A stretch of 63,960 bases of DNA. Origin: an uncultured Erysipelotrichaceae bacterium. GTDB lineage: Bacteria; Bacillota_I; Bacilli_A; Erysipelotrichales; Erysipelotrichaceae. Below, one piece after another: positions 12,120-33,957 of this stretch; within the stretch, counting starts at the first letter, position 1; each line of letters starts with the position of its first letter. The position numbers were made by a program, and so were the translations under genes. The stretch lies in assembly GCA_945877405.1 (NCBI GenBank), contig CAMCSA010000005.1:1-63960 (forward strand), given 5' to 3'. The notes beneath the pieces are model-generated. The model did no database searches. It was not told the origin of the DNA and saw only the letters and a program-made list of their open reading frames with translations.

Positions 12120-12629
12120 ATGAATCTGGATCTGCTCGATATCAACAAGGTCAGCACCAAGTGCTTCAGCCATGATGATACCATCCCCTGTTGCACCAGT
12201 ATGGTTTGTTGTAACATAGCCTTCCAGTTCTTCTATGTACTTGCATACCATTTCACTGTTGGCTCCAAAACCACCCGTTGCAAGTACCACTGCTTTGGCA
12301 TTGAGCAGTATTTCTTCACCATCCGATTCTGCCTTAACTCCTGTTACAGCACCATCTTCCATGATAATTTCAACAGCCTTTGTGTTGTAGGTGATTTCCA
12401 CACCTCTTTCATCCAATGCATTTACAAGATGTTCAACAAGGTATCCGCCTACTGCACTTCCATCTTCTGGTGTGTGAGTACGCTTTGCACTCTGTCCTCC
12501 GGATGTGGAAAGACCAGTCAGATTGACACCGATTGTCTTCAGCCATTCAATTGCTTCAGCGAAATGATCTACCATATAACGGACAAGATCCGGATCATTC
12601 TTTTCATAGCCACCAGCCATCGTATCTGC

Positions 12630-14600: not shown

Positions 14601-15003
14601 CGCTGAATTCACCACCGTCCTATGAGGACGGAGTACTCTTCTTATTGCTTATAGAACAGATCGTTAGAATCTTCCACGCCATTTTCAGCTTCAACGGACG
14701 TTTCAGAAGCATTCATACCACCACTTGCACGGTTTGTATTACCACCTGCGATTGCCATCTTTTCCAGAACAACAACATCCGCACCTTTATCATACGCTTC
14801 AATAGCAGCTGAAAGGCCAGCTCCACCAGCGCCGATTACAACAACATCATAGTCTTTTTCCTGTACATTTCCAGCAGAGGATGAGGATACAGCTGTCCCA
14901 CACCCTGCAAACATCATTTCCGAAAGAATGACAGCAGTCAATTTACGATTCATAATTTTCCCTTCTTTCTCGTGCAGGATTATATCGTTTTATGCACACA
15001 GAA

Positions 15004-27931: not shown

Positions 27932-28466
27932 TCAGTAATTCAGACCTGGATTGAAGAATCCGACAAGTACACCGACAAAGGCAATGACGACAAGCAGAAG
28001 CATGACCTTAATCGGAGACATCTTTTTCTTGGCTAACAGGAATCAGCACAGCAGTACGAATGCTGCTGTCAGGAAACCTGGATATACACCATCCAGTGTA
28101 TCCTGCAGTTTCAGGAATGGCTTTGATGCACCTGCGGCAGTCATTGTAAAGGAAGTACGTACGGATACTAATGCCGCAACAGCACCGATAACGATACCAC
28201 CCAGCATTGTAATGGATACCCTTAACGCTTCTCCCTGTGCACCTACAAGGAAGTCTACGGCTTTCCCACCGAGTTCATATCCCTTGTAGTACATGAACTT
28301 CATACCAAGGTAAGCAAACAGGTTCCAGACAATGATATAGAAGATTGCACCGATTGGAGAACCACCGGTAGACATACCCATAGCTACACCAAACAGAATC
28401 GGGATGACTGTACCAACGACTAAGGAGTCACCGATACCTGCGATCGGTCCCATCAGACCTGCATGG
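27932..28466 (-). pseudogene. PTS mannose/sorbose-type IID component, truncated, with internal TGA
   Basis: The C-terminal two-thirds of a PTS IID membrane subunit, which together with IIC forms the sugar channel. It begins in-frame at AGLMGPIAGIGDSLVVG, where the family normally continues from a longer N domain, and runs through GGSPIGAIFYIIVWNL and GMKFMYYKGYELGG. An in-frame TGA near 28046 interrupts FVLLC before FLLAKKKMSPIKVM; the rest then reads to NPGLNY and a stop. The 5' part was deleted and joined to a binding-protein gene (see 28453-29073). No IIA, IIB or IIC gene remains. Confidence 0.82.
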
Positions 28467-29073
28467 CAAGTTCCAGCTGGCCTTCACACTCTGCCTCGTC
28501 AATAATCCAATACTCAGTTTTCCCTTCAATCGTATCCAGAAATCCCTGAATCCGCTGTGCAGCAGAAAGAACTTTGGAATGGCGAAGAAGGATGATATCA
28601 GCCTGTTGTTTTCTTTCCATCATATCCAGTGCACACTGTACCCCGGCATTGTAGTTATCAGATACAATCGTGCAATCTGCAAGTCCTGGCTCGTCAATTT
28701 CCGTATCCAGAACAATTACCGGTATACCGGCTGCCTTGGCATCCTTTAGAACAGGAACAATTGCCTGTGAATCAACCGGATTGACGAATATGCCACTGAC
28801 CCTTTGGGCAATAAAACTGCGAATCTGTTCGATCTGTTTATCAATATCCAACGAAGGATCCAGTGTAATCAGCTGATCCCCATTCGCCTCAATGACTTTT
28901 TCAAGCTGGTTATCAATGACTTCATAGAACGGATTGTTCATCGTCATGTATGTTACACCGAAAACTTCATGACTGTAATTTGGAATATTGTATCGAATAT
29001 AGATACTGATCGACATAATACACGAAAGGATCAGAAGGATCCATCTGACAGTCTGTTTCTCATTGTTCTTCAT
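28453..29073 (-). pseudogene. Periplasmic sugar-binding protein, C terminus replaced by IID sequence
   Basis: The 206 residues start with an uncleaved hydrophobic helix (WILLILSCIMSISIYI) and continue as a type I periplasmic-binding fold: VFGVTYMTMNNPFYE, DKQIEQIRSFIAQRVSGIFVNP, and GIPVIVLDTEI, as in RbsB-like ribose/galactose-binding proteins. Normal members have about 300-330 residues. The frame breaks off after EGQLELAMQV and runs directly into the IID sequence, whose codons begin 10 bases before this stop. So the two genes share a deletion junction. Membrane-anchored versions usually sit next to sensor kinases, like the one upstream here. Confidence 0.78.
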
Positions 29074-29137
29074 AGTTGATTTTATTGTACATACTTTTTG
29101 TCATTTTAAAAAAGTGATAAATGTCATTTCTGTGAAG

Positions 29138-29163
29138 AAAAAGCCGAAACATATGCTTCGACT
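29138..29163 (-). terminator. Terminator after the hybrid histidine kinase
   Basis: AGTCGAAGC-ATAT-GTTTCGGCT stem followed by TTTTC on the minus strand. Confidence 0.75.
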
Positions 29164-29166
29164 CAA

Positions 29167-31671
29167 TCATACAGTGATATTGACATTGCGGATAATTGCT
29201 TTCTCCACTTCATTCATATCAATCGGTTTTGCGATATGACCATTCATACCGGCATCAAAGGAAGCCTGTACATCTTCCGCAAAAGCATTCGCTGTCATCG
29301 CAATGATCGGTATTGTCTTTGCATCCTCACGATCCATACAGCGAATTTCCTTTGTAGCCTCATATCCGTTTTTGTTTGGCATCATGACATCCATGAAAAT
29401 CAGATCAAATGTACCAGGTGGATTGGAAGCAAACTGTTTCACAGCATCCACACCATCCACTGCTCGTGTAACTTGGATCCCTCTTTCTTCCATCTGCACT
29501 CTTGCGATTTCCGTATTCAGATCATTGTCTTCCGCAAGCAGTACTTTGATACCATCCAATGGCACCGCATTAACATCCACAACAACAGGATGTACCTGAT
29601 CCGCTTCTGTTTTTTCTAACGGAAGTTCTACTGTAAATACAGAACCGACTCCCTTTGTACTTTCAACTCTGATCGTACCACCCATCAGATCCACATAGCG
29701 CTTTGTGATTGCCATACCCAGGCCTGTACCACGATACTGGGTTCTTGCATTGTTGGCTTCCTGAGAGAATTCATCAAAGATATGTTCCAGGAATTCCTCA
29801 CTCATGCCTACCCCTGTATCAGCGATCCGATATGTGACATACATCGGACCATCATCCTTTTCATTCCGATAGGAAACATCGAATTCGATGGTACCTCCAT
29901 CTTCTGTAAACTTGACCGCATTACCAAGAATATTGACAAGCACTTCACGGATTCGCACATCATCAGCCATCACATATGGCCACTGCGGTGAGTCAAACTG
30001 TGTAACAAAATGAATCGAACGGTTTGTCAGGAATCCCTGCATGATACTGCATACCATGTCAGATATCGTACGGATATCGACCGGAACCGGAGTAAACTTC
30101 ACCTTTCCGCTTTCAATTCTGCTGATATCCAGAACATCATTGATCAATGTCAGCAGATGTTCCGAGGAAGAACTGATCTTATGCAGACAGTTTCTGACTT
30201 CCTCATTCTGTACCTGTTTCATGGCAATATTGGTAAAACCAATGATCGCATTCATCGGAGTACGGATATCATGGGACATGTTATTCAGGAAGGAAGTCTT
30301 TGCCTGGTTGGCAGACTGAGCTGCCACAGCAGCTTCCTCAAGTTTCAGATTAATCATCCTGTCTTTTGTACGATCGGACAGATCCATGATGAATTTCTTT
30401 TCATGATCGATCTCAGTACATAGTACAACCGTATGGAACCATCGTCTCTCACCTGTTTTCTGATGGACATACTCTCTGTCCCATTCCTTCTGAGTTCCCT
30501 GTTCTATACTATAGATCTCATGTAATACGCTGATTACATCTTCTCCATAGATAATGGCTTCCAGATTATGAACATCTTCATAAAGTGATGCTTCGGTTAC
30601 ACCGATCAGTTTCTCAACATTCTGTGAAACATATTCCACCTTCAACGTTTTGGCATCCACCATTATGAATACATCATCAATGTTTTCCGACAGTTTTGAG
30701 AAAAGCGCATCACGAATATCCAGAGCATGATCCTTTTCCTTCAGTTTCTGTCTGTTCTGCATGACGATCATCGCAACAACCACAATCATGACGCCGACCG
30801 TAATCACAGATACAACAACCATCGTTATGTACTGCAGGCGGTTCATATTGGCATTGACGATATCTGCCGCTACAATACCGGTTACAATCCAATCCTGAAA
30901 ATCGGCAGTTTCATAGACAAGGTAATATGATTCCCCATCCATCTCAAATAACAGACTGCCTGAGTTACCATCTCTGAAATCCTGTTCCAGTGATGCGATC
31001 CGATCTGCGCCCATACCAGTTTTCTGTTTGAGCATCGCAAGAACATTACGTACCTTTCCCATAGATGAAGATGCATTGTCCACAACGACTCTGCCATCCG
31101 GCAGGATCGCAAATGTACTTGCATTTCCATCAAATGCTGAGATCTTGAGAGCTTCCACCATGTCGGAATTATTGAAGGTAATCGCAATGGCATCATATTC
31201 AAACCCACGATAGGTACCATGATCTGTCGGTACAGCAAATACCATGATTTCAGGCTGATCCGGTACAACGGAATTGGCTACAACAGAAACTCGGTCTATC
31301 ATCAGAACTGTCAGTTTCTCGTTCAGATCCAGATATCCGGTATTCCCTTCCATAGAAAGATAATTTCCATTTTTGGAAATAAAGCAGAAATCGGTAAAGC
31401 GGCTTTCCTGTCGTGCCTTTTCAATGTAGGCATCAATCTGTTCCACATCCTGTGTTTCTTCCAGATATGGAGCCCACATGTTCATCCGGCTCCAGTTGAC
31501 GGAAACAAGAGAATTCAATGTCTGATTTGCCTGATGGAAAATTTCACTCAGATGAGAAACACTTTCCTCATAGATTGTTTCTGAAACGAAAACGGAAAAA
31601 GAAAACCCGGTGAAAAGTATACCAACGCACAGAACCACTAACAGTGCTGCTGTAATGAGTTTCTTTTTCAT
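29167..31671 (-). CDS. Hybrid sensor histidine kinase / response regulator
   Basis: An 834-residue membrane sensor. Helix 1 (about 6-29) and helix 2 (about 282-305) flank a 250-residue extracytoplasmic dCache-type sensor. A PAS domain follows (about 325-430, WFHTVVLCTEIDHEKKF), then HisKA with phospho-His H467 in NMSHDIRTPMNAIIGF, HATPase (NILGNAVKFTEDGG; DTGVGMS; GTGLGMAITK), and a receiver with D761 in LIFMDVMMPNKNG and the Lys in GHIAKPID. No HPt or DNA-binding output is fused, so a partner is needed. It lies 21 bp downstream of a solute-binding/5'-nucleotidase-C gene in the same direction, suggesting that the binding protein presents a ligand to the dCache domain. Confidence 0.9.
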   Translation of the reverse strand: MKKKLITAALLVVLCVGILFTGFSFSVFVSETIYEESVSHLSEIFHQANQTLNSLVSVNWSRMNMWAPYLEETQDVEQIDAYIEKARQESRFTDFCFISKNGNYLSMEGNTGYLDLNEKLTVLMIDRVSVVANSVVPDQPEIMVFAVPTDHGTYRGFEYDAIAITFNNSDMVEALKISAFDGNASTFAILPDGRVVVDNASSSMGKVRNVLAMLKQKTGMGADRIASLEQDFRDGNSGSLLFEMDGESYYLVYETADFQDWIVTGIVAADIVNANMNRLQYITMVVVSVITVGVMIVVVAMIVMQNRQKLKEKDHALDIRDALFSKLSENIDDVFIMVDAKTLKVEYVSQNVEKLIGVTEASLYEDVHNLEAIIYGEDVISVLHEIYSIEQGTQKEWDREYVHQKTGERRWFHTVVLCTEIDHEKKFIMDLSDRTKDRMINLKLEEAAVAAQSANQAKTSFLNNMSHDIRTPMNAIIGFTNIAMKQVQNEEVRNCLHKISSSSEHLLTLINDVLDISRIESGKVKFTPVPVDIRTISDMVCSIMQGFLTNRSIHFVTQFDSPQWPYVMADDVRIREVLVNILGNAVKFTEDGGTIEFDVSYRNEKDDGPMYVTYRIADTGVGMSEEFLEHIFDEFSQEANNARTQYRGTGLGMAITKRYVDLMGGTIRVESTKGVGSVFTVELPLEKTEADQVHPVVVDVNAVPLDGIKVLLAEDNDLNTEIARVQMEERGIQVTRAVDGVDAVKQFASNPPGTFDLIFMDVMMPNKNGYEATKEIRCMDREDAKTIPIIAMTANAFAEDVQASFDAGMNGHIAKPIDMNEVEKAIIRNVNITV

Positions 31672-31692: not shown

Positions 31693-31971
31693 TTACTTAA
31701 CTATTGTAACGTAATCGCTTGGTTGTGCAAACTGCTGTGTATTGCGAAGTACTTCCGCTACTGCCTCCTGGCTGGAGTAATCCGTCACATAGTCAGCCTC
31801 ACGCTTTGCCTTGATATCTTCCGGCATCGGGCAGTTGCAGAAGGTTGGATGTTCAAGATATGTATCCACACCTACCATCATCAGAGAATATGTTCTGTTT
31901 TTATCTAATGGCTCACCATTAATGGATATATCTGTCAGTTCATATTTCCCTTTTTCCAGTTCCTTCACCGT
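31693..31971 (-). pseudogene. 5'-nucleotidase C-terminal domain fragment, severed by an amber codon
   Basis: The frame continues without shift from the upstream solute-binding gene after TAG at 31969-31971: the product would read VTSGLD-stop-TVKELEKGKYELTDI. The segment ISINGEPLDKNRTYSLMMVG is the closing part of the 5'-nucleotidase C-terminal domain, ending in YVTIVK. A change of one base (TAC or TAT to TAG) is enough to explain it. A GTG in GTGAAGGAAC could restart translation, but the fragment lacks the domain's first strands. Confidence 0.8.
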
Positions 31972-33567
31972 CTAATCCAGACCGCTTGTGACAGGCATCT
32001 GGTTATAATGGTGAATCGGATTGGAACCATCTTCTTTGATATTGACAAGCCACTCCATGATTCTTCTGACTTCTTCACCTGTATATTCACCACGATAAAT
32101 CGCATTGCGGAATGTCATGACCCACTTGACCTGCTGCAGTGTATATTCTCCTTCATAAATACTGGAGCTGGCAACAGAAGCGTAACCGATCGCAATATCA
32201 TCATTTTCAAACTGACGTAATGTATTCATCAAAGAGGAAGCCGCCTTGGATCCATGTTCCCCGAAGTCATTGGAATATGCTGTTTTCTGTGTAAACAGGA
32301 TTTCTTTTGTTTCCGGATCCACATACTGTGTAATCTGTCGGTTGAATTCTTCATATGCCTGCTTTGCATCATACTTTCCCGTCATCATCTTATGTGCAAC
32401 ATCCTGAGAAATACCGAAGATTTCCGTAGAAGCAAGACGCTGATATAGATGGTTGGATGCAATACAGTCCTGAATATAAGCCAGAGAATTACTTGGGGTG
32501 ATTTTGACTTCCTTGTTGTAGGAAAGAACAGAAGTACCTGCCGCAACATGTTTCTGCCCTTCATCAGAGAAGATTGCCATTAACACTTCATTGATTGCTT
32601 TCTCCTTGGCAGGATCTTCAGCAACCTTAGCTGATACAGCAAGCTGACACATTGGATAAGTCAGTACCCAGTTATCTTCACTTGTTTCACCAAAATACGG
32701 AAGCATGACTGCTTCTACATTCTCATTTTCCGCTGTAACGCTGTCCGCAAATGATGCAGTATTACGGATCATCGCTGTTTCACCATTCAGGAATGGCGGT
32801 GTTGTGACTGAAAACGTCTGATCTTCAGAACCTTTTTCATACCGGACATCCTTTAAAAACTGCTCATACTTTTCAAAGACAACAGGCCATACGACATCAT
32901 CAAGACCTACCTGGTTATCTTCTGTTTCACTTTCATATGCACGTCTCCATGAAGTACCTTCCAGACTCATCAGTTCCGGAATTGCGGAACCCTGCATTGT
33001 TTCAAGGCATGTATAGTCATAATACCAGTCTGTATCAAATCCTTTGATCCCGAGATCCTCAAAGGCATCGATTGTTGCTTTAAATTCACTGTAGTTCGTA
33101 GGTAATGCAATGTTGTACTGGTCAAAGAGTTTCTTGTTGGCAACAATACTGTCAACTTCTGCGCACATTGGCAGCCATCTGATGGCACCACTTTCCTCGC
33201 GGTTGTTTTCCAGATAACTGGAATAGAATGTGCCTGCTACTTCTGTACGGCTTAAGTCCATCAGGTATTCAGACAGGGATGCTGCATCATTCAGTGAGAA
33301 ACGACGGCATGTAATGACATCTGGCATCTCTTCTCCCCGGCCGATCAGATCCTTGTAGTATTCCATTGTGTTAAAACTCTGCACAAAGGTAAAATCAATA
33401 TCCGGAAATTTTTCTTCCAGCCATGGTGTCAGTTCCTTGAACATGGATCGATCGTACATGTACATGCTGATGGAAACCTTTCCATCATGATCTGTTGTAC
33501 CGGCACATCCAGAAAACAAAGTTACCGCCATCAGGCCTGTAAGCAGAAGCTTCATCATTTTCTTCAT
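31972..33567 (-). CDS. Extracellular solute-binding lipoprotein with start of a 5'-nucleotidase C domain
   Basis: A 531-residue lipoprotein (MKKMMKLLLTGLMAVTLFSGC lipobox). Residues about 30-420 form a type 2 (UgpB/MalE-like) binding fold: WLEEKFPDIDFTFVQSF, GRGEEMPDVITCRR and IRWLPMCAEVDSIVANKKLFDQYNI. From about residue 445 (IAIGYASVASSSIYEGEYTLQQVKWV) it changes to the beginning of the 5'-nucleotidase C-terminal domain, which is cut off by TAG and continues in the next feature. The intact protein would have about 624 residues. Transcribed with the hybrid kinase downstream. The ligand is unknown; because a sugar-type binding fold is coupled to a nucleotidase substrate domain, a nucleoside or nucleotide-sugar is a guess. 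Confidence 0.82.
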   Translation of the reverse strand: MKKMMKLLLTGLMAVTLFSGCAGTTDHDGKVSISMYMYDRSMFKELTPWLEEKFPDIDFTFVQSFNTMEYYKDLIGRGEEMPDVITCRRFSLNDAASLSEYLMDLSRTEVAGTFYSSYLENNREESGAIRWLPMCAEVDSIVANKKLFDQYNIALPTNYSEFKATIDAFEDLGIKGFDTDWYYDYTCLETMQGSAIPELMSLEGTSWRRAYESETEDNQVGLDDVVWPVVFEKYEQFLKDVRYEKGSEDQTFSVTTPPFLNGETAMIRNTASFADSVTAENENVEAVMLPYFGETSEDNWVLTYPMCQLAVSAKVAEDPAKEKAINEVLMAIFSDEGQKHVAAGTSVLSYNKEVKITPSNSLAYIQDCIASNHLYQRLASTEIFGISQDVAHKMMTGKYDAKQAYEEFNRQITQYVDPETKEILFTQKTAYSNDFGEHGSKAASSLMNTLRQFENDDIAIGYASVASSSIYEGEYTLQQVKWVMTFRNAIYRGEYTGEEVRRIMEWLVNIKEDGSNPIHHYNQMPVTSGLD

Positions 33568-33791: not shown

Positions 33792-33878
33792 TGGTGGGGA
33801 AGAAGGGACTCGAACCCTCACGATGTTTCCATCACCGGATTTTAAGTCCGATGCGTCTACCGATTCCGCCACTTCCCC
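33792..33878 (-). tRNA. tRNA-Leu (TAA)
   Basis: 87-nt class II tRNA with encoded CCA. Acceptor GGGGAAG/CTTCCCC, anticodon loop CTTAAAA, long variable arm. Confidence 0.96.
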
Positions 33879-33883
33879 GGATA

Positions 33884-33957
33884 TGGAGGTTCGTGCCGGG
33901 GTCGAACCGGCGCTCACAGAGTTGCAGTCTGTTGCCTTACCACTTGGCTAACGAACC
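33884..33957 (-). tRNA. tRNA-Cys (GCA)
   Basis: 74 nt with encoded CCA and discriminator T. Acceptor GGTTCGT/ACGAACC, anticodon loop CTGCAAC. Five bases upstream of tRNA-Leu(TAA), same transcript. Confidence 0.95.

Follow-up and report, generated by a model that had tools for sequence, protein, structure and literature searches.

In the LuxP-LuxQ, TorT-TorS, and XylFII-LytS pairs, an extracellular binding protein presents its ligand to a membrane kinase. LuxP, TorT, and XylFII are members of the RbsB-like class, distinct from the family-1 sugar solute-binding proteins (SBPs), and are not known to carry a 5'-nucleotidase domain. Many gut Clostridia furthermore possess orphan hybrid kinases whose signals are unknown. 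In Ruminiclostridium cellulolyticum, CuaD is described as binding its kinase CuaS and signaling cellobiose (PMC10384115). Here, we analyzed a stretch of 63,960 nucleotides (the window) from the draft assembly, in 86 contigs, of an uncultured Erysipelotrichaceae bacterium, in which a lipoprotein gene precedes a hybrid kinase gene (Table 1). Our main reading, to which we assign a probability of about 0.65, is that this lipoprotein, in which an SBP is fused to a noncatalytic 5'-nucleotidase C domain, belongs to a Clostridial family, was acquired laterally, docks on the dCache hybrid kinase, and is truncated here by a nonsense codon.

Table 1. Features of the lipoprotein-kinase locus (window positions)
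Feature	Position	Strand	Basis or remark
SBP-5'-nucleotidase-C lipoprotein gene	31693..33567	minus	624 codons with read-through; 531 aa up to the TAG
Lipoprotein-type signal, Cys21 (LFSGC)	33505..33567	minus	G20 and C21 nearly invariant in the close-family alignment
Solute-binding domain, family-1 sugar SBP fold, ~residues 27-422	32302..33489	minus	Pfam SBP_bac_1/SBP_bac_8 and predicted fold
C-terminal region, ~residues 423-624, with 5'-nucleotidase C domain	31696..32301	minus	Pfam and hhalign
In-frame TAG, codon 532	31972..31974	minus	39 homologous segments (at least 55% identical, covering codon 532): 38 with Tyr, one with Phe
Intact 834-aa hybrid kinase: dCache sensor, PAS, HisKA, HATPase, receiver	29167..31671	minus	Pfam and predicted dCache fold
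Inverted repeat and T-run 3' of the kinase, terminator-like (GTCGAAGCATATGTTTCGGCTTTTTC)	29110..29166	minus	Read directly from the sequence
tRNA-Leu(UAA) and tRNA-Cys, upstream, bounding the segment absent in relatives	33792..33957	minus	

The lipoprotein gene runs from an ATG at 33567 to a TAA ending at 31693 (624 codons plus the stop), on the minus strand, which the first-pass annotation had left unspecified. That annotation had proposed a fusion of a binding protein with a 5'-nucleotidase C domain, and this holds, as Pfam finds both domains in the read-through protein: SBP_bac_1 at residues 50 to 284 (29.4 bits versus a cut-off of 26) and 5_nucleotid_C at residues 451 to 564 (47.2 bits versus a cut-off of 23.6, E 3e-12). 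The AlphaFold model of the lipoprotein, built from 30 sequences, has a pLDDT of 84.9; with VIA-align, its SBP half matches 3quf_A with a Z score of 33.5 over 371 residues and RafE with a score of ~30, the fold-search matches being SBPs that cover residues 28 to 420 only. At the other end of the protein, hhalign relates the C-terminal domain to full 5'-nucleotidases from genus-mates with a probability of 97.5 (E 5e-12), and its homology to true 5'-nucleotidases is solid at the sequence level. Pfam detects no metallophosphoesterase catalytic domain in the lipoprotein, the N-terminal part being an SBP instead. Where the C domain departs from the 5'-nucleotidases, residues 566 to 584 (window ~31816-31872) form a highly conserved GADxxLEHxTFCNCPMPED motif, the two cysteines of which possibly provide a metal site or a disulfide.

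The sequence of 31693-33567 contains, as previously proposed, a single amber break in an otherwise continuous frame: the TAG at codon 532 is the sole internal stop, there is no frameshift, and the frame stays open for another 92 codons. Two details of that proposal need to be amended. The TAG had been placed at 31969, which is 3 nt off and corresponds to the next codon, ACG (Table 1). It had also been said to split the fusion; there is indeed one TAG, but since codon 532 lies inside the 5'-nucleotidase C domain, the stop does not separate the SBP from the nucleotidase domain but truncates the latter, which explains why 5_nucleotid_C drops to 21.9 bits, under its cut-off, when the TAG is not read through. 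The fused frame is not fortuitous, since homologues align across the TAG.

Homologues have a Tyr or, in one case, a Phe at this position, and TAG is one base away from both Tyr codons. As judged from the sequence, the TAG remains either a Tyr-to-amber nonsense allele or a base-call error. That the organism has an intact gene, with one wrong base introduced in the draft assembly, is unlikely, although several observations favor it: the stop stands alone without any frameshift, the kinase is intact, and only eight of the 252 near-invariant sites before the TAG are changed. Near-invariant sites are nevertheless altered more frequently after the TAG than before (4 of 32 versus 8 of 252, p 0.03), as would be the case for a tail that has ceased to be translated, and we take this as a weak sign of relaxed constraint on this tail. 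Moreover, one homologous copy (L057:6001-7519), interrupted by two in-frame stops and an internal deletion and accompanied by a fragmented kinase, is decaying independently of the window copy, so that decay of such a system does happen. A programmed amber read-through or recoding yielding two forms of the protein could make use of the 92 codons beyond the TAG, but it is barely credible: no covered close homologue has a TAG at codon 532, other open reading frames of the window terminate at TAG, none of the 45 tRNAs of the genome has the CTA anticodon of an amber suppressor, and no PylS is found above the cut-off in the genome, the existing match falling far below it. Amber recoding or pyrrolysine insertion was rejected on the last two results. 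Under the preferred reading, a nonsense allele, the Tyr-to-TAG change truncates the binding protein inside its C-terminal domain, and the window copy, next to an intact kinase, has thus probably lost some or all of its sensor function.

The presence of a dCache-type kinase 21 bp away was also borne out. The kinase gene begins at 31671, 21 bp after the lipoprotein gene, with a Shine-Dalgarno-like AGAAAGGA ahead of it. Pfam dCache_1 reaches 25 bits on the sensor region, under its cut-off of 45; the predicted model of this region (pLDDT 81) adopts the double-PAS extracellular fold of dCache domains with long flanking helices, and its best PDB matches are dCache domains, with Tlp3 and mmHK1S-Z3 at E ~1e-11. 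The terminator-like repeat after the kinase suggests that the operon is limited to the lipoprotein and kinase genes. An RbsB-like gene at 28453-29073 was considered as a third member and rejected on account of this repeat and of the lack of any RbsB match in the homologous loci. This RbsB-like binding protein, which lacks its C-terminal third, abuts a fragment of a mannose-type PTS IID protein devoid of ~100 N-terminal residues (28043-29073 for the whole), and the junction at 28453 looks like a deletion or an assembly junction.

Scanning a single genome for each species, we identified 45 homologous loci, mostly in Clostridia, with best segments 54 to 75% identical and full-length homologues reaching 75% identity to the window lipoprotein. 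Full-length two-domain homologues do stand beside hybrid kinases: the same dCache-PAS kinase is encoded directly downstream in 35 of the 38 loci having enough downstream sequence to be tested and, in 33 of these 35, lies 25 to 80 nt after the last aligned lipoprotein residue. Among the three loci without a kinase match, L041 offers only ~400 nt of downstream room; in L031 and L044, the lipoprotein is present without a downstream kinase. Homologues lacking the second domain, which according to the first-pass annotation would contradict the fusion, were not found in the close family. Among the three distant members tested, two have a 5'-nucleotidase C domain by Pfam, the second copy of L018 giving no Pfam hit. 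In this locus, a second lipoprotein-kinase pair directly follows the first one (L018:10446-13875), with an extra partial C-domain-like match between the two pairs (12418-12603). An intact distant paralogous pair is also present in the genome under study, on contig C29 (L014:2769-6829), where a binding protein that is 35 to 37% identical and likewise matches 5'-nucleotidase C is followed by a 727-aa hybrid kinase; a genome of the same order (G049) carries a 30% identical pair.

This distribution bears on whether the lipoprotein could be an ordinary binding protein of an ABC importer, adjoined by a kinase through chance. Such an explanation is highly improbable, even though it would account for the SBP fold and for the two kinase-less loci L031 and L044: the conserved pairing and spacing refute the chance adjacency, and tblastn with three permease queries gave ABC sugar-permease matches in L039, L042, and L057 only among the 45 loci, which, within the reach of these three queries, argues against a transport operon. 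Widespread among gut bacteria, this family of surface lipoproteins has apparently not been described before; in the open-access literature, we found no relevant description of an SBP-5'-nucleotidase-C fusion, an absence that is no proof of novelty.

As regards the ligand, the first-pass annotation had suggested a nucleotide or sugar sensor, and sugar is the better half of this suggestion because the SBP half resembles binders of raffinose- or maltodextrin-type oligosaccharides. The bound solute would most likely be an oligosaccharide. Nucleotide sensing through a classical 5'-nucleotidase site, on the other hand, finds little echo in the alignment of the family. At the positions of the residues that we take to contact the nucleotide in UshA (Arg410, Phe429, and Phe498), the lipoproteins have Ser or Thr at 468, a variable residue at 486 (Ala, Phe, Ser, or Tyr), and Thr, Val, or Asn at 569, where the alignment is less certain. 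Given these variable or replaced positions and the absence of the catalytic domain, classical nucleotide binding or sensing by the C domain appears unlikely, and this domain may instead have a structural, docking, or new-ligand role. One could still conceive of a sensor of nucleotides or nucleotide-sugars in which the C domain keeps base binding while the SBP domain takes the sugar part. The firm homology of this domain and its retention in close family members as well as in two of the three distant ones tested speak for such a sensor; we nonetheless consider it improbable in view of the contact positions not being retained and of the missing metallophosphoesterase domain. A bolder idea, which we put forward tentatively and at somewhat less than even odds, is that the C domain, which in the enzymes binds substrate, was converted into a signaling module that either binds a second ligand or serves as the surface on which the lipoprotein docks to the dCache kinase. 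The lipoprotein-kinase pairs would then represent a class of extracellular sensors, encoded by two genes and common in gut Clostridia, that has so far gone undescribed.

The window copy was probably acquired laterally from Clostridia. In the tree, the window lipoprotein is nested inside a Clostridial clade (support 100/99), and the fusion gene was not found, at the thresholds used, in any of 35 genus-mates or of 295 genomes sampled from the phylum. The lipoprotein-kinase pair lies within ~10.9 kb separating tRNA-Leu from tRNA-Arg in the window. In the genus-mate L083, tRNA-Cys and tRNA-Leu are ~170 nt from a tRNA-Arg-Pro-Met cluster, with no binding-protein or kinase genes, and in the genus-mate L088 the only gene of the tested set between those tRNAs is SurE-like. 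The absence of the pair between the tRNAs of relatives, together with the position in the Clostridial clade, makes lateral acquisition the simplest reading; the GC content of the region (0.42-0.43) is that of its surroundings, and composition consequently lends no support to a transfer. Elsewhere in the window, 14642-14953 encodes a short piece from the N terminus of a lipoprotein resembling FAD-dependent reductases and is probably a pseudogene.

The best reading of the system, by analogy, is a sensor of the three-component type, made of a binding protein and a hybrid kinase. The lipoprotein would capture a solute outside the cell, most likely an oligosaccharide, and would dock on the dCache domain of the downstream kinase, much as CuaD binds CuaS in the CuaD-CuaSR system; docking would in turn alter autophosphorylation of the kinase and phosphotransfer to its receiver. 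The dCache domain of the kinase could also bind a ligand directly. In the genome under study, truncation probably causes the lipoprotein to misfold or prevents it from docking, which would leave the kinase without its partner. The window copy itself is of little weight, since it looks like a transferred and decaying member of the family. The interest of the latter resides rather in the conserved partner lipoprotein, whose sugar-type pocket offers a concrete handle on the ligand of orphan kinases, and in a 5'-nucleotidase C domain that, devoid of its enzyme, looks reused outside catalysis.

The architecture is real and conserved and, while apparently undescribed, still represents a variation on an already known type of sensor. 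With CuaD-CuaSR, it shares a Clostridial SBP encoded beside a two-component system, in which CuaD signals a sugar through its binding to the kinase. As far as that description goes (PMC10384115), CuaD is an SBP only and CuaS and CuaR are separate proteins; in the present locus, the SBP carries a fused 5'-nucleotidase C domain, and the kinase and the receiver are parts of one protein. Like LuxP-LuxQ, TorT-TorS, and XylFII-LytS, the locus is a gene pair for a binding protein and a membrane kinase, with an adjacency conserved in 35 of 38 loci, and the core of the hybrid kinase matches the NCBIfam TorS and LuxQ models, well below their cut-offs. The C-terminal domain (PF02872) is homologous to that of UshA/CD73-type 5'-nucleotidases, but these differ from the lipoprotein by their metallophosphoesterase domain and by nucleotide-contact positions that the lipoprotein has not retained. 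Finally, the SBP half has the same predicted fold as the family-1 oligosaccharide SBPs RafE, MsmE, and 3quf (Z ~28-33), from which the lipoprotein is set apart by an identity of ~15%, by its extra C-terminal domain, and by an adjoining kinase apparently in place of an ABC importer.
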